Shown here in pieces: positions 7,359 through 16,600 of a DNA stretch of 41,543 nucleotides. The translations under genes were made by a program, and so were the position numbers. The stretch comes from Mycoplasmataceae bacterium (GTDB taxonomy: Bacteria; Bacillota_I; Bacilli_A; Mycoplasmatales; Mycoplasmoidaceae). The notes below the pieces were generated by a model, which saw only the letters and a list, made by a program, of their open reading frames with translations, had not been told where the DNA came from and did no database searches. Each line of letters opens with the position of its first letter. Position 1 is the stretch's first letter. The DNA is taken from contig JAISPD010000029.1 in the NCBI GenBank assembly GCA_031275175.1, positions 1 through 41,543 on the forward strand. The letters are read 5' to 3'.

Positions 7359-10300
7359 TTACATCAATGATATATTAGAAATATCAGAATATTTTTTGAA
7401 AATATTTATAAACTCTTTTCAAACTCGCCATTTCTTTTGCTCTCGAGCTTGATCCTTTGTGAAACGTGACATATTTGGCAATAATTCGCTAATTTCTGTA
7501 CCTATAATTTTGACCTCGCCATTTTTAAATGAAGATTTTAAAAAATCATAAGTTTTGTCTTTTTTTAATTGTTCTTTAGCAATAATTTTATTAATATCTT
7601 TTTGTCTTTGCTCGTTTACAAAATCTTCTCACTTTTGGTTTGATTGATTATTTATCGTTTTAATAAAGTTATTAATTAATTCCATTTTACTTCTTAATGT
7701 TGGATTGGATGTGACATTTCTATTGATTTGTGCTAATACAACGGTCTTATCTTTATAATTAGATTGATGGTATCTTTCAACTAGTGAGAGAATATAATCA
7801 ATGCTGATTTCGCTTTGCTTGACTAATTCAATTTCAAAATTTACATCATTCAAAATGCTCGCTTTATTGGATTCTATTTTGTTTCTATTTTTGTCATATA
7901 AATCTAAATATAAGCTCTGATAATCTTGAAATTCTCGTTCCGTAAGAATTTCTTTATCCAGAAATTCATCAAAACTAGACAGAATATTTTTAATGCGTAA
8001 AATCGCTCCGTATAATTTAATGAATCTCTTTTCTTTTTGCTCACCCATAATTTGTGAAATTAGAAAATGCTTTTTTAAATGCTGAATTAATTCAACATAT
8101 CCATCATGATGGATATTATTATCATCGTAACCATAATAATAATCGTTAAAAGATTTTAAAATTACAATATTTCTTGCATTTTTATTCCCAAATAATGCGA
8201 TTGCATCGTTGATATTTTGCTCTAAATCCCTAAAACAGACAATATTACCAAAAACTTTAATATCGTTTAAAATACGATTTGTTCGTGAAAACGCTTGTAA
8301 AAGACCATGATATTGCAAATTTTTATCAACTCACAGAGTATTTAAAGTGGTTGCATCTAATCCTGTCAAAAACATATTAACAACAATTAATATATCAATT
8401 TTTCTTTCCTTAATTTTTTTGGAAACATCTTTATAATAATTTTCGAATTGATCTGAAGATGTTGAATAATTTGTTGTAAATAAATTGTTGTAATCGTTAA
8501 TGGCAGAATCTAAAAAATCTCTGGACGATTTATCTAATTTGTCAGTTTCAAAAATTTCATCATTTAATGCTCCGTCTGATAAATCCTCTTCATTATTCGC
8601 AAAACTATAAACTAATGCAATTTTTAATTTATCAGTATTTTGTTTTTGCAAATTTTTAAATGCTATGTAGTATTTTTTGGCCGCTCCAATTGAAGCAGTA
8701 GCTAAAATAGAGTTGAACCCCATTAACCGTTTATCTTTAAGTAAATAGTGCTTATTGCGCATAGTCTTTTGATCAAATTTATCCAAGATGTAGTTAGCAA
8801 TCGTCGTAATTCTTGATGTTGACATCAATGTTTCGTTAGTATCAATGGCGTGAACCCGTGCATCTTTAATCTTAGGTATTTGCTTAGTAGTGTTGACATA
8901 ATCAACTCTAAAAGGTAATACATTATTATCATTGATGGCATCAACAATTGTGTACGAGTGTAATAATTCACCAAAAACCTGTGCCGTAGTTTTTAAAGCA
9001 ATTTTTGAATTTTCGTTAGCATTATTAGCAAAAATTGGTGTACCAGTAAAACCAAATAAATGATAGTTTTTAAAATATTTAATAATATTTTTGTGAAATT
9101 CTCCAAACTGTGAACGATGACATTCATCAAAAATTAATACGACGTGTTTTTTATAAAACACATGGTTTTTATTATTTTTGATAAATCTATCTAATTTTTG
9201 TATCGTAGTAACAATAATTTTTTTTGATAAATTTGATTCTAATTGTCTTTGTAAAATTTTTGTATTAGAGGTTCCATCAACTGAACCTGCTTCATATTTG
9301 TTGTATTCTTGCATGGTCTGATAATCTAAATCTTTACGATCTACCACAAATAAAATTTTGTCAATGTCAATTTCTTTGCTAATTAATTGTGCCGCTTTAA
9401 AAGATGTTAGAGTTTTACCAGATCCCGTAGTGTGCCATATATATCCGCCTCCACCAATCGTTCCGATTTGATCATGATTTGTAGAAACAAGAATTTTATT
9501 CAATATTCTCTCAGTAGCCACAATTTGATAGGGACGCATAACAAGTAATTTTTTCTCGGTGGTAAATACACAGTATTTAGTCAAAATATTGAGAATAGCA
9601 TGTTTGGCGAAAAAAGTTTTGGTAAAGTCTATTAAATCCTCAATATTTTTATTTTTGGCATCAGCTCATCAAGATGTGAACTGAAAACTATCTGAAGTTT
9701 TTATACCGTTAATTCGACCATTATTAAGTTCGTTTCGCTCATACGAATATCTGGTTGTGTTAGAGTAATATTTGGTATGTGTCCCATTGGAAATTACAAA
9801 TATTTGTATATACTGAAATAAACCCGAGTTTGATCAAAAACTTTCTCGAGTATAACGATTAATTTGATTGAAAGCTTCCTTTAACGCAACGCCGCGCCTT
9901 TTTAATTCAATATGAACCAAAGGCAAGCCATTAACTAAAATAGTTACATCATAGCGATTTTTTCTCGCGCCATCATTTTCATATTGATTAATAATTTGCA
10001 ATGAATTATTATGGATATTATGTTTATCAATGATAGTTATATTTTTAAAGGTACCATCATTTCTTGTTAACGAAATTTGTCCACCATCTTGAATTTTGGC
10101 AGTTTTATTTACGCTGTCTTCATTAGGGTTAATTAATTCTGATTTTAAAAGATATTCTCATTCCTCTTTAGTAAATTTATAACGATTCAATTTTTCAATT
10201 TGTTCTCTTAAATTAGTAATTAATTGCGATTCGTTTTTAATGGAAATGTAGTCATATCCCTGCTGTACTAATTGATTAATAAATTCTTTCTCTAATTGTG

Positions 10301-10403
10301 GTTCTGATTGATAAAAAGTATCTGTTTTGTGACCCGATTCATATTCGGCCACAACTGTAGAATTCGGACATAACATAATTTGTTTATATTTAGACATATT
10401 CAT
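7359..10403 (-). CDS. hsdR: Type I restriction enzyme, HsdR (endonuclease/translocase subunit)
   Basis: 1014 aa. HsdR translocates DNA using ATP and cuts it in complex with HsdM2S. The N-terminal nuclease region has LVHIELKRRG (about residue 166), the Glu-x-Lys of the PD-(D/E)xK site. The helicase motor has HTTGSGKT (about 324), IFDECHRSQFGEF, FGFTGTPIF, VVNMFLTGLDATTLNTLWVD and LLQAFSRTNRIL. A C-terminal helical region binds the methyltransferase core in known enzymes. All frames join once TGA is Trp, so the gene looks intact. ATG 10403 is chosen; ATG 10397 is also possible. Its start overlaps the hsdS 3' end (stop at 10390), so it is the last gene of the hsd operon and probably translationally coupled. 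Confidence 0.95.
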
Positions 10404-10983
10404 TTTTTTCAAAAGTTAAAAGTTTATTTCTGTAGTATTCATATTGCTGTCGTCTTATTTTCATTTCTGCTGGTAATCCTTCGGTTAAAGAAGATATTAA
10501 CGACTCAAATTTGTCAAGAATATCAACAACTTTTTGTTGTAATGTAATTGGAGGGATGGGAATATTGAATTTTTTTAACTCATTCATATCAACGCTCGGA
10601 AAACTAGATGTGTTCAAATGTGATTTGCAAAAATTTGAAATTATTGGAAAATAATAAAATAAAAATTTAACCAATATTTTTTCTTTATATAAACCATTAA
10701 TAACTAGTCCTGTAAACCGTTGATTCATTCATGAATCAACGGTTAATAGTGCGTACTCACCAATTGTGGCTGTTGTGCTTAAAATGAAAGAATCTGATGG
10801 CATCAATTTATTATTTTTAATTGCTTGCTTAGTGATAAATTTACTAGCGGTAATTTTGTTTAATATTCTCCCATTATTACGAATATCTTCCATTCTAAAT
10901 CAAGGTATATCTCCTTGGTTTCAAAATTTATTAATTTTAGTGGATGGAGTATATCCATTGCAAAATTTAAATAATTGTTCCAT
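10390..10983 (-). CDS. hsdS: HsdS 3' half: second target-recognition domain (out of frame with the first)
   Basis: 197 codons from ATG 10983 to the stop at 10392-10390. It holds a whole second recognition domain (MEQLFKFCNGYTPSTK onward) and the distal conserved region: IPIPPITLQQKVVDILDKFE, then a helix with RRQQYEYYRNKLLTFEK. It is in a different frame from the first half because of the TG tract at 11009-11024. The ATG lies 1 nt after the stop codon of the first half (TAGCATG on the minus strand), which suits termination-reinitiation. It could therefore be made as a separate half-subunit, or as part of a full HsdS when the repeat number changes. Confidence 0.8.
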
Positions 10984-10984
10984 G

Positions 10985-11581
10985 CTAACCCATTCTATGT
11001 TTCCCCTTTGTGTGTGTGTGTGTGGAGAAGTCTAATAATTTATCCCTATAATATTGATACTGTTTTTTTCTTAATTCTAGTTCTGTTTCTAGTTCTGTTT
11101 CTAGTTCTGTAAACTTATCTAAGATTTTAACAATTTTATTTTGAATTTCTAACGACGGTAAAGGAATAATGATATCATAAATTGCTTTTTTATCTAAGGC
11201 AGGAATTCCTGCGCCTTTTTTTGAATTCATAATAATTTCCTGGCTATTCTTCAGCAAATAATACAAATATTTATTGATTATTTGTGTTTTAGGTTGAACG
11301 ACATAACAATGTGCACCAGCTCAAAATTTTGTTCGTATAAAATTTACATAACCAGCAGAAGCACCCCCTTGGCTGATAATAATTGTATTTTGATTTGCAT
11401 TAAATTCATTTCAAAACCCGGAAGCATGAATGCCCCCATTTATAACTGGATAATTACCAGCATTTAACATTTTTTCTTTGTTCAATTGCGTGCCCTTTAC
11501 AACCGTACAAACAGTTCCGATTTTTACAAATTTCACATCTTTATGACATAATTTTTCAATTATAGTTATGAACTTATTCAT
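10985..11581 (-). CDS. hsdS: HsdS 5' half: first target-recognition domain, type I specificity subunit
   Basis: 198 aa. HsdS chooses the DNA sequence read by the type I complex. The chain contains a first recognition domain (KIGTVCTVVKGTQLNKEK, YPVINGGIHASGFWNEF, ISQGGASAGYVNF, GAGIPALDKKAI) and the central conserved helix (IIIPLPSLEIQNKIVKILDK, TELETELETELELRKKQYQY). After the TG tract it reads a few foreign residues and stops at TAG 10987-10985. With 6 or 9 CA units instead of 8 (minus strand) the frame would open into the second half (EWVSMEQLFKF). ATG 11581 lies 1 nt after the stop of the upstream gene. Confidence 0.85.
11009..11024. repeat. (TG)8 microsatellite inside hsdS
   Basis: Eight TG units on the plus strand, CA units in the coding sense. 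The tract sits between the central conserved helix and the second recognition domain. Frame calculation: 8 units lead to TAG after KGKHRMG; 7 units lead to TAG after KGET; 6 or 9 units join both halves into one protein. Confidence 0.95.
11077..11110. repeat. 12-bp tandem repeat coding TELE units in hsdS
   Basis: CTAGTTCTGTTT repeats nearly three times in phase with the reading frame and encodes TELE-TELE-TELE in the central helix between the recognition domains. In the EcoR124 family, copy number of a four-residue repeat (TAEL) at this place sets the spacing between the two half-sites. A similar role here is inference. Confidence 0.9.
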
Positions 11582-11582
11582 T

Positions 11583-12320
11583 TTATGCGTTTCTATTCAA
11601 AAAAGCAAATATTTCTATACAGACAAAATAAACTCTGTTTATGTACCCGACCTTATTAGTAATAGAAACATATTTTCTATATTCTTCGTTATTATCATTC
11701 TTTTGGTTGTCCTGCGCGTGTCTAACTGCATTCAACATATTTCTATATTTTAACAATTCATCTTCCGAATAAATATTATCAAATATTTCTTTATGCTTGG
11801 GTCCCACCTTATCTATAACTAAGTCTATAATTGGTTTAATATTAATTATTTTTTCATTTATGTTTTTAGAATTTCTATATTTTAAAAAAAGATCATATAT
11901 ATCATCTACATCGTTATCGACTATTTCGGTTTCTTCAAAAGGTATGATTTCATGTTCATTATTCTGCTCAATAATTTTTCATAATGACCAATGGCATATA
12001 GCATGTATTTGATTTAAACATTTTGCACAAAGTTTTTTGTCATGATCAGAATAAGAAGAGGAGTTATAAATATGATAAAAAAATTCATACCAAAAATTAA
12101 ACCATTCTTTTGAATTATGATCAAAATTGGCTAAAAATTGCTTGAGACTCAAAGTGTAATTTTGTAAAAGAAAGTCGTCTATTAGATTGTAGTTTGAATT
12201 GTAGGACATGTGTTCTTCTACATAATTATTAAATTCTTTTATAAGAATATTGCTCATTTCCAATCTATTCAATTTGTCATTATGAAGAATGTTTATTTTA
12301 TTTTTTAGTAAATTACTCAT
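11583..12320 (-). CDS. Unknown protein encoded inside the type I hsd operon
   Basis: 245 aa, not recognised. ATG 12320 is chosen because GAGGT lies 5-6 nt upstream; ATG 12332 is an alternative. It overlaps the end of hsdM by 8 bp and stops 1 nt before the hsdS ATG, so it is locked into the operon. The protein is acidic and rich in Asn, aromatic and charged residues, with no signal peptide or membrane segment. Two compact parts can be seen: an N-terminal helical region with WFNFWYEFFYHIYN and CAKCLNQIHAICHW (three Cys, two His), and a C-terminal helical region with KYRNMLNAVRHAQDN. The latter faintly recalls the RN...H signature of HEPN-type RNases, but spacing is not canonical. A defence-accessory role is suggested only by position. 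Confidence 0.8.
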
Positions 12321-13869
12321 GAAATACCTCATTAATTATTTTTTCTATCTGTTTTCTCAATTCATCTTCTTTAATGACTACTTTTCGAATTTTGTTATTT
12401 AATTGTTTAATATCTATAACTTCTTTAATTTCCAGTTTTTGAACATATTTTGAAACTGATAATTTGTAATCATTACTTGCAATTTCTTGAAAATCAACTA
12501 ATTTACACTTGTATTCTACATTTTTGCGTTTAGTAAATAATTCCAAAATTTGATCAATATTGTTTTTAGTGAGTTTATTCGTTGCATCTTTGCGTTCAAA
12601 CATTTCGGTTGCATCAATAAATAGAACTTTATTTTCTTTCTTATTTTTCTTTAAAACCATAATACAAGTAGCAATAGTAGTGCCAAAAAATAAGTCTTGC
12701 GGTAATTGAATAATACAATCAATAAAATTATTATCAATTAAATATTTTCTAATTTTTTGTTCAGCCCCACCTCTGTACAAAACACCAGGAAAGCAAACAA
12801 TCGCCGCAGTGCCGTTTGTTGCAAGTCAACTTAAACAATGCATGACAAACGCTAAATCTTCTTTTGATTTTGGTGCTAGTACTCCAGCTGGTGCAAATCG
12901 TTCGTCATTAATTAATAATGGGTTGGCATCACCATCTCATTTGTGTGAATAAGGTGGGTTAGATACAATCGCCTCAAACGGTTCGTCATCTCAATGGGCG
13001 GGTTGTAAAATGGTGTCACCACAAGCAATATCAAAATTCGAAAAATTAATATCATGCAAAAACATATTAATCCGACAAAGGTTATAAGTGGTCCGATTTA
13101 TCTCTTGACCGTAAAAACCCTTACTAACATTTTTCTTACCCAAAATCTTTGCAAATTTAAGCAATAATGACCCCGAACCACATGCTGGATCATATACTTT
13201 GTTGACACTCGTTTTATCAACAACGCATATTTTTGCTAATAATTCAGAAACTTCTTGGGGTGTAAAATATTCGCCACCCGATTTACCAGCTTGCGATGCA
13301 TACATCCCCATGAGATATTCGTACGCATCACCGAACATATCTATACTATTATCATGATAATGACCAATATTTAAATCGTTAATTGATATCAATAATTTTT
13401 CTAACAATTTATTCCGCTCATCAATGGTATTACCGATTTTTTTAGAATTGGTATCAAAATCGTCAAACAAACCCTTAATCTTCTTTTCGCTTTCTGTTCC
13501 TATTGCTGATGCTTCAATTGACTTGAAAATATCAAATAAATGTTCATTTAAATGTTCTTTAAATTGACGATTACTTAATTTCTTGACAACATTAGTGAAC
13601 AGCTGACTTGGATAAATAAAAAAACCCTTATCATTAATTATGTCTTTTTTACCATATTCTGCTTGTTCGTCAGACAACATCTTATAATCAATATCTTTTT
13701 CAGTAGAATTAATAAAATGTGTTAAATTTTCACTTATAAAACGATAGAAAAGTGTCCCCAATATATATTGTTTGAAATCTCATCCATCTACAGCATTACG
13801 CAATTGTTCAGCTATTTTTCAAATTATTCTAAACAGTTCATTTCTTTCTTGTTCTTTGGTATTAGACAT
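12313..13869 (-). CDS. hsdM: Type I DNA adenine methyltransferase subunit HsdM
   Basis: 518 aa, full family length. HsdM transfers a methyl group from S-adenosylmethionine to adenine N6 at sites chosen by HsdS. The N-terminal helical domain begins [20 protein letters not shown]. The catalytic domain has the SAM-binding motif [10 protein letters not shown] (from Asp227), [20 protein letters not shown] and the adenine motif NPPY (from Asn304), then [18 protein letters not shown]. The start is supported by AAGGAG 8 nt upstream. ATG 13869 lies within the last codons of the ATPase gene (8-bp overlap), and the 3' end overlaps the following unknown gene, so translation is probably coupled on both sides. 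The gene looks intact. Confidence 0.96.
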
Positions 13870-15106
13870 CTATTTTCTCCTTTCCTAATAATCAATTAAT
13901 CATATTAACAATTCTCACGCCTTCAACTGTGTAATCAGATTTATCATACCGCGAAATAACGATTCGCTCATAAGGCTCTTTGCAAAGTAACAAATTACCA
14001 ATTTCAGCATTTTGGTTGCTGGATGTAATTTTTTCGGTAACTTGAATAAATTTTCTTAATTTACCGTTCTTACTTTCAACTATAAAATCTATCTCTCTCC
14101 CATCGTGAAATTTATAGCCATATAAATTACATCCCAATCTTTTGAATTCGCAAAATACTAGATTTTCAAGGGAGTAACCTCTATCTAAATTAAATTTGGC
14201 ACTAATATTCCTAATTCCAACATCAATTGAAAAATATCTACCCGATGTCTCCAAAACTTTTTTTCCTTTTAAATTAAAATAATCACTACGATATATCAAA
14301 TTAGCATCTATCATCCATTTTATGTAACGATCAACGGTTTTATCGGTAGTAGTAGATTTATTATTGCTCTGAAGATAATTGGCAATCTTATTTGCTGATG
14401 TTTGTTTACCTATATTATCAAATATATAATTAGTTATTCGTTTGAATTCTGACACATTTTTTTTAAGATTATGTCTATTTTTAATATCTTTATTAATAAC
14501 ATCGTCTAGAATTTTAGTTAATTGGTCCTTAATTATTATTTCATTATTTCATTTAGATAATAAAATAGGTAATCCACCATATTGAATGTATTGCTCAAAC
14601 ATATCATTAACTGATGCAAAACTAATGTCATTTATTTTGAAATATTCAAAGTATTCATGAAATGAAAAAGGGAATACATGGATTTCTAAATATCTTCCAG
14701 TAAATAAACTACCCAATTCATCACTAAACATTTTTGAATTTGAACCAGTCAAAACAATATCAAATTTTATTTTTTTATTCTCAAATAAAGTGATTACGCA
14801 ATTTTCAAAGTTTTTTATTTCTTGTATTTCATCAAGGAATACATAATTCACTTTATTTTGAACGGCATTATTTTCAATTTCTTTAGTTAGTTTTTTTCAA
14901 TTAAATTTATCTGCAATGAGTTTATCATTGAAATCATAATCAATGACCTGATTGTCATTTATTCCAAATTCACGAATCAGAATGTCTTTGTATTGGCTCA
15001 AAAGTGTGGATTTACCGCATCTTCTTACACCAGTTAGTATTTTTATATAATGTACATCTTTAAGAGATTTTAATTTTTCCAAATATTCATTTCTAATCAC
15101 TTCCAT
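13862..15106 (-). CDS. DUF4143-type AAA ATPase, first gene of the hsd operon
   Basis: 414 aa. Walker A GVRRCGKST (26-34), Walker B NYVFLDEIQEI, a sensor-like LTGSNSKM, and then an AAA-associated C-terminal part with FHDGREIDFIVESKNGKLRK, which resembles the degenerate nuclease-like fold of DUF4143 proteins. Members are widespread in anaerobes and Mollicutes; their substrate is mostly unknown. The apparent end at a TGA is not an end: with TGA as Trp the protein adds [10 protein letters not shown] and stops at TAA 13864-13862, overlapping the hsdM start by 8 bp and containing its ribosome binding site. The start ATG 15106 has no Shine-Dalgarno, and a TATAAT lies 8 nt before it. Placement suggests co-expression with the type I system. 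Confidence 0.88.
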
Positions 15107-15248: not shown

Positions 15249-16600
15249 GCACCCATTTAAGCAGACAACTTTTGATTGTTCATATGTAAATATAATAGAT
15301 TACCCATATTTTTGTAGTTTCCATTCATGACGCGCATTAAAAGCATGCATTGTTGTTGATACTCTTCAGGGGTTAAATAACCTAATTGACTTTGAATTCG
15401 TCCATTGTTATATCATTATAAATATTTTTCAGCTTCTAGACGAATTCTATCAATTGTTCGTTTGTTTAGTGGAATTTTGTAAAAACATTCAGTTTTAAAG
15501 TTGGATCAAAAAAACTCAATTGGTCTGTTGTCTAGCGATTTACCTTTGCTTCCCATTGATAATCTAATGTTATGATTTTTACAATATTCTTTGTATCCGT
15601 TACTCACATACAAGCTACCATGATCTGAATGAGAGATACAATTACTAACATTAGCTTCATAAATTGATGCATCCCTAATTTTAAGTCGTTTTTTGTATCA
15701 ATTACAAGGCCAGATGTCTTAGTTCCACATAAGTCGATGTAAGCAGAAGCATAAAAAAAGCCAGATGAACTATGTGGCGTTTCCAAATATGTAGTATCAG
15801 TAGAAAATATTGTTTTTGGAATGCAACTGTTAAAATTTCCTTTGAGTAAATCTTTATATTCCTCATTTTTGGTTTTTTGGATCGTAACGTTTTAATTTCC
15901 TTTTAATTAACGATTTAATATTGTATTTATGGCATATATTTTGAATTCGCTTATGATTAACATTCTTTCATGCCTCAATTTTTCTTAGCGAATGATAAAT
16001 TTTACGATATCCATAATTCTTATTAGATAGCCTTCATATATACAAAATCTTTTCAAATAATTTATCCTCTAAATGAATGTTTATTAATTCTTGTTTACTA
16101 CGTTTATCGTAAAATGTACTTCTTGATAATTCTAAAATGTATAAAAGTTTTCGAATACTTATACAACATTCAGAACATTTATCTTTAATGTCATTTTTTT
16201 TAATTTTACCGATCTTTTCTTTGATTATTTCTTGTTGAATTTTTACGATTTCTATCAGTTCGTTACGGGAATAATCTTCAGGGAATCGTATTTGTTTTTT
16301 GTTTGTCACATATTTAAATATGTAAGTATTATCTTTTGAAAAAAGTTTATTTCATCTCTTTAACATCTCAATCCCTGGTCGGTATAAATGTCGGCATTTA
16401 CCTTTTTAATCCCTTTAGATTCATAAATATATTTTTACTCATATTTAACCAATTTATTTCTAAAAATAATTGAATTTAATAATTTGGGTGAGATTCCTAT
16501 ATTGTAATCCACCAATAATCTTAATTTAAGATTTATGTCTTTAATTTTGTCCATTTGTTGCTCCTTTTTTGAGCAACAGGTTGTCTACATTATGGGGTGC
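15249..16600. mobile_element. IS3-family (IS150-like) insertion element, decayed
   Basis: About 1.35 kb. The imperfect inverted ends are related: GCACCCATTTAAGCAGACAAC at the left and, reversed, GCACCCCATAATGTAGACAAC at the right. The interior codes on the minus strand for orfA-like and orfB-like transposase segments with several frame breaks. The right end abuts an IS30 C-terminal coding fragment at 16601, so this element probably inserted into an older IS30 copy. No target duplication could be confirmed. Confidence 0.75.
15257..16554 (-). pseudogene. IS3-family transposase (orfA/orfB), frameshifted
   Basis: Starts at ATG 16554 (MDKIKDINLKLRLLVDYNIG), stops in frame at TAA 16437-16435, and resumes in other frames. 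The orfB part reads ELSRSTFYDKRS and NKNYGYRKIYHSLRKIEAW, then shifts frame at an A6 tract near 15880. It continues with IFSTDTTYLETP and DLCGTKTSGLVIDTKNDLK, shifts again near 15675, and ends with SNCISHSDHGSLYVSNGY, SKGKSLDNRPIEFFWSNFK and YNNGRIQSQLGYLTPEEY. The catalytic D, D and E positions are still recognisable. At least three lesions make it a pseudogene, although orfA/orfB programmed frameshifting is normal in this family. Confidence 0.8.

Follow-up and report, generated by a model that had tools for sequence, protein, structure and literature searches.

A type I restriction-modification operon of a Mycoplasmataceae bacterium probably carries, in its hsdS gene, a slippage switch resembling that of NgoAV, by which a fused HsdS with an asymmetric target and a self-dimerizing half-HsdS with a palindromic target replace one another. 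The repeat tract and its reading frames, the intact domains at both sides of it, the conserved position of the junction and the presence of both states among relatives are directly observed in the window (i.e., the whole stretch of 41,543 nucleotides analysed) and in the genomes compared with it. What we infer is that the tract slips in this species, that the half-subunit is active and that methylation changes.

Results

The operon and its two HsdS halves

The operon lies on the minus strand, in the order AAA_14/DUF4143 ATPase, hsdM, an ORF of 249 amino acids, hsdS and hsdR. Both hsdM (12313..13869; EcoR124II M, E 5e-180), which is free of repeat tracts, and hsdR (7359..10412; EcoR124 R, E about 1e-244), a member of the EcoR124_C family (PF12008, E 1.2e-53), are intact and encode full-length proteins, provided that TGA is read as Trp, since five in-frame TGAs are found in the first and seven in the second. 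Among PDB sequences, HsdM, HsdR and both HsdS halves each match EcoR124II best, the two halves matching its S subunit with E 3e-30 and 8e-40. Judging by the EcoR124_C domain of HsdR, by the closeness of HsdM and HsdS to their EcoR124 counterparts and by a 12-bp array of the TAEL type, in three perfect copies, in the central conserved region, the operon is a type IC (EcoR124 family) restriction-modification system.

The 249-aa ORF (11583..12332, minus strand) abuts the hsdS start; its family matches all fell below cut-off, and no counterpart turned up around the hsd loci of its congeners. The ATPase gene (13862..15106, minus strand), a PADLOC candidate (PDC-S01), overlaps the start of hsdM, and AAA_14/DUF4143 ATPases also occur near other type I systems, at L117 7032-8000 in the same genome and at L127 3605-4822 (G018). 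The second type I system of the source genome, at L117 2107-3345 (G000:C7), has a fused HsdS whose only repeat near the joint is (AG)5. An ORF of 170 amino acids (15854-16366) with an HTH_21 domain (IS3-type transposase fragment) separates the restriction operon from the following genes of the opposite strand.

As assembled, hsdS is split into two modules on the minus strand. Half-HsdS1 (10985..11581) comprises the first target recognition domain (TRD1) and the central conserved helix. Its frame is open from a TTG at 11608, giving an ORF of 207 amino acids; judging by the alignment, the likely start is rather the ATG at 11581. Half-HsdS2 (10390..10983) comprises TRD2 and the C-terminal conserved helix, in a frame that is open up to the tract and for 213 codons altogether, which happened in none of 20,000 base shuffles. 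This half has an ATG at 10983, one base past the stop of the first half (TAGCATG). Pfam Methylase_S is matched by both halves (E 1.6e-34 and 3.5e-28), so that the halves, just like hsdM and hsdR, are as undamaged as had been claimed.

Half 1 as modelled with AlphaFold2 (mean pLDDT 88.9) has a complete TRD followed by one helix of 40 residues (153-192 of the 207-aa ORF), directly after which come the tract-coded residues, with confidence falling there. In the model of a fused homologue, L047 from an uncultured Clostridiales with a G9 tract, the equivalent residues (195-197, by coordinate arithmetic) fall within the loop, modelled with low confidence, that leads from the central helix to the second TRD. 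The tract thus follows immediately on the central helix, in the linker, and a break at this point would therefore leave half-HsdS1, at eight units, a complete half-subunit according to the models. The helix also holds the 12-bp array mentioned above (11075..11110, minus strand; TRF, 100% match), whose three copies code for Glu-Thr-Glu-Leu (ETEL) repeats and correspond to the TAEL spacer repeats of EcoR124, where the number of repeats determines how long the spacer in EcoR124I/II targets is (PMC3874165). Perfect period-12 arrays of at least 24 nt are found in most distant relatives as well (one listed array being a masked N run), and the array is likely to be a second source of variation, which would alter target spacing and leave the frame unchanged.

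The CA tract and its reading frames

The putative slippage site is a perfect (CA)8 repeat on the coding strand (TG8 on the plus strand) at 11009..11024, in the context ...TTA GAC TTC TC CACACACACACACACA AAGGGG.... The structure predictions place it where the original prediction had it, between the central conserved helix and the second TRD. Runs of this kind were absent from all 100 dinucleotide-preserving shuffles of the window, and pattern searches, by which all genome-wide repeat counts were made, found (CA) repeats of at least six units nowhere else in the source genome, a draft of 833,179 bases in 33 contigs and 86% complete. Translated in silico with code 4, the eight units of the assembly, a modest number, give the split state, with a stop 7 codons past the tract; seven units lead to a stop 4 codons past it, whilst 6, 9 or 12 units yield a single hsdS frame of 404-408 codons. 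The earlier reading of the frames, i.e., stops with 7 and 8 units and joined halves with 6 and 9, thus holds. A search for other isolates of the species gave one distant IMG/VR match only (28% identity).

Junction repeats in the same genus

Eight genomes of the genus, including the window's own (G000), have this hsdM family and a visible hsdS, and a frame-shifting repeat sits at the junction in all eight: G8 in G013, G021, G010 and G022, G9 in G008, G7 in G015, GA9 in G019 and CA8 in the window. At each of these loci one of the three phases joins the halves and the remaining two run into a stop within 15 codons of the tract. The gene is fused in five genomes (G008, G010, G013, G019 and G021) and split in three (G000, G015 and G022), a contrast seen between species only, with one genome per species. 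The junction of G015 has an overlapping TAATG; that of G022 has no in-frame ATG for the second half. Further hsdS families of the genus (G001, G004, G035 and C7 of G000) have (AG)5 repeats, which were considered too short to be counted. In two of the loci, L123 (G019:C2:44430-46270; 609 codons) and L124 (G010:C2:44310-46060; 567 codons), three TRD modules share one frame and the slippage tract occupies one of the two joints; an HsdS with three TRDs is known from H. pylori (JHP1422; PMC3936762).

Tracts of the same sort are not limited to hsdS in this genus. Poly-G runs occur in hsdM at about codon 200, in an SGGE motif (L123 7190, L124 6374, L125 7706, L119 6120 and L120 6878), and hsdM is split there in G010, G019 and G022, whereas G008 and G021 have it intact. 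In G013 and G015 a GA9 or CA10 repeat lies close to the start of hsdM. Such separate tracts suggest an independent ON/OFF control of the methyltransferase. None of the eight genomes yielded a MutS, which fits a high rate of slippage. The genome of G008 is unusually rich in poly-G (G7 matched at 93 overlapping positions in about 500 kb), suggesting many phase-variable loci.

Junction repeats in distant type IC loci

Eighty distant loci were picked by similarity of their HsdM, and not by repeats; 72 of them had an assessable hsdS pair, and in 15 of these 72 a strict non-triplet tract lies at the joint. The tracts are of many kinds (GA7 to GA19, AG8 to AG14, AC16, G8-9, AAGC6, GACA18, CAGA9 and CAAG5). 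To these 15 in 10.6 kb of junction compare 7 in 72 kb of other hsdS sequence, all homopolymers, 4 in 125 kb of hsdM and 3 in 190 kb of hsdR; all 11 dinucleotide and tetranucleotide tracts (7 and 4, respectively) in about 398 kb of hsdRMS sit at the junction. The density at the junction exceeds that in the rest of hsdS across the 72 loci (binomial p 2.9e-9), and the triplet to non-triplet ratio differs between junctions (0:15) and the remainder of the three genes (7:14; Fisher p 0.014), both tests assuming an independence of loci that is not strict, as L015/L046 and L047/L080 share flanks. The lack of triplets at the junction and the confinement of dinucleotides and tetranucleotides to it argue for selected frame-shifting and against decay.

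On the HsdM tree, presence and absence of a junction repeat need at least 13 changes; the trait therefore arose or vanished many times, horizontal transfer being a caveat to this count. The repeat can also differ in length within near-identical flanks, GA7 in L015 against GA19 in L046. In L015 the stops of both non-fusing frames meet the ATG of the second half (ATGA and ATGATTGA), and L046 is alike (ATGACTGA), stop-start overlaps that look like translational coupling. An in-frame ATG for the second half is not commoner at repeat-bearing junctions (7/15) than at the others (18/34).

Discussion

The mechanism proposed would work as follows. Replication slippage would alter the number of CA units in a tract that encodes a flexible linker after the central helix, where HsdS divides into two self-sufficient halves. 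In one phase out of three (6, 9 or 12 units) the full HsdS would be made, with TRD1 and TRD2 reading an asymmetric split target, whilst the other two phases, including the assembled eight units, would release half-HsdS1, consisting of one TRD and the helix. This helix would zip with that of a second copy, directing HsdM and HsdR to a predicted palindromic target. Given that the half-S dimerizes in the NgoAV, EcoDXXI and EcoR124I cases, the switch would therefore alter the target rather than turn the enzyme OFF. Activity of half-HsdS1 is a prediction and not guaranteed, however, considering that the TRD1 half-S of H. pylori JHP1422 is inactive alone (PMC3936762). Half-HsdS2 may also be expressed when the gene is split, though the hsdS2 of NgoAV is inactive.

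In a plainer interpretation, seven or eight units leave the cell with no active HsdS and a silent system, and six or nine with a working one. This is the commonest slippage control of methyltransferases, and the hsdM of the same genus carries such tracts, being split at poly-G in G010, G019 and G022. Even so, we consider it quite unlikely, for an OFF tract could occupy any position in hsdS and yet the tracts cluster at the junction, where by the structure model the break keeps half-HsdS1 complete, and type IC half-subunits are active in NgoAV, EcoDXXI and EcoR124I (PMC9577141, PMC3874165). Alternatively, both halves could always be made as separate proteins, by termination and reinitiation at TAGCATG, giving the same heterodimeric specificity plus homodimers, so that the tract would mainly add combinatorial targets. 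The ATG of half 2 only one base past the stop of half 1, the overlapping TAATG in G015 and the restoration of wild-type activity by co-expressed halves of EcoDXXI (PMC3874165) all agree with this. It is nevertheless unlikely, since a ribosome-binding site close to the half-2 ATG is missing, half 2 lacks the first strand when it begins at 10983, and junctions with repeats show no excess of start codons, G022 having no in-frame ATG there.

Repeats may gather at the junction simply by neutral tolerance, as the linker is unconstrained, a low-confidence loop in the model of fused L047; frame-keeping triplets would then be favored, but distant junctions have 0 triplet against 15 non-triplet tracts (Fisher p 0.014), which makes this improbable. 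That the gene is decayed or the count erroneous, the true allele being fused or dead, is a concern with this draft genome, known from a single consensus, short repeats being error-prone. We find it highly improbable, given that half 2 is open to its end (0/20,000 base shuffles), that the congeners carry differing frame-shifting repeats at the same joint and in both states, and that a count off by one unit would still leave a slippage site. Inversion-type hsdS switching was rejected: no suitable inverted repeats (arms of at most 27 nt, 78%) were found between 7000 and 15200, and no duplicated hsdS was found within the operon.

The switch between fused and half HsdS is thus the reading we prefer, and the phase variation originally predicted gains from the junction repeat in every comparable locus of the genus (five fused, three split), as well as from the clustering of repeats in distant type IC loci, the failure to find MutS and the NgoAV precedent (PMC9577141). 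With about even chances, the half-joint in the HsdS of type IC systems is a hotspot of slippage in general, refilled in many phyla by unrelated frame-shifting repeats (G, GA, CA, AAGC, GACA, CAGA, CAAG); switching between fused and half forms would then be a widespread design of the family, and the rule in this mollicute genus, often with a separate hsdM tract in addition. The literature searched contained no statement that different frame-shifting repeats concentrate at one structural joint across phyla, or that every comparable locus of this genus has one, though the original REBASE survey (reference 14 of PMC7394358), outside that search, may touch on the matter. An asymmetric-to-palindromic methylation switch at a single locus would allow several states of restriction and methylation to coexist within one clone, which is of consequence for resistance to phages, the uptake of DNA and gene expression controlled by methylation. 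The differing repeats at one joint also make it possible to ask, across many species, what leads type I enzymes to alternate between whole and half S and how frequently they do so.

Simple sequence repeats (SSRs) in hsdS, a half/fused switch and dinucleotide slippage in mollicutes are all known already, and to them the present locus adds another case. Closest is NgoAV, the type IC system of Neisseria gonorrhoeae, where truncated HsdS recognizes GCAN8TGC and the fused form GCAN7STCA (PMC9577141). In both systems two half-S ORFs are separated by a repeat tract, which closes hsdS1 at its 3′ side, and one length class joins the halves, with a change of target in NgoAV, and the sizes are similar (truncated HsdS of 208 aa against the 207-aa ORF here). 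They differ in the repeat, a CA dinucleotide instead of poly-G, in the host, a mollicute with TGA as Trp instead of a gonococcus, and in that switching and activity are demonstrated for NgoAV and predicted from sequence here. EcoR124I/II and EcoDXXI share with our operon the subunits, which match EcoR124II best, and, within the central helix, a 12-bp array of the TAEL type. Truncated to half-S, EcoDXXI and EcoR124I are active with palindromic specificity (PMC3874165), but the truncations were engineered or transposon-made, and none of these systems is described as having a slippage tract at its junction. SSRs were reported in 7.9% of REBASE hsdS genes, predicted as phase-variable, in a survey as cited in PMC7394358; relative to what is cited of it, the present analysis adds that the repeats lie where the half-S modules meet and that they are present genus-wide. 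Dinucleotide slippage in mollicutes, also invoked by the original prediction, has its precedent in MmyCI, the type III mod of Mycoplasma mycoides subsp. capri, whose AG tract is off at 12 units and on at 10 (PMC3498834), i.e., likewise a dinucleotide tract in a mollicute methyltransferase gene, but one of ON/OFF character and not a specificity switch. The inverting hsdS loci of Mycoplasma pulmonis and SpnIII, finally, share the phase-variable type I specificity and reach it by recombination between inverted repeats, which at suitable length are lacking here.
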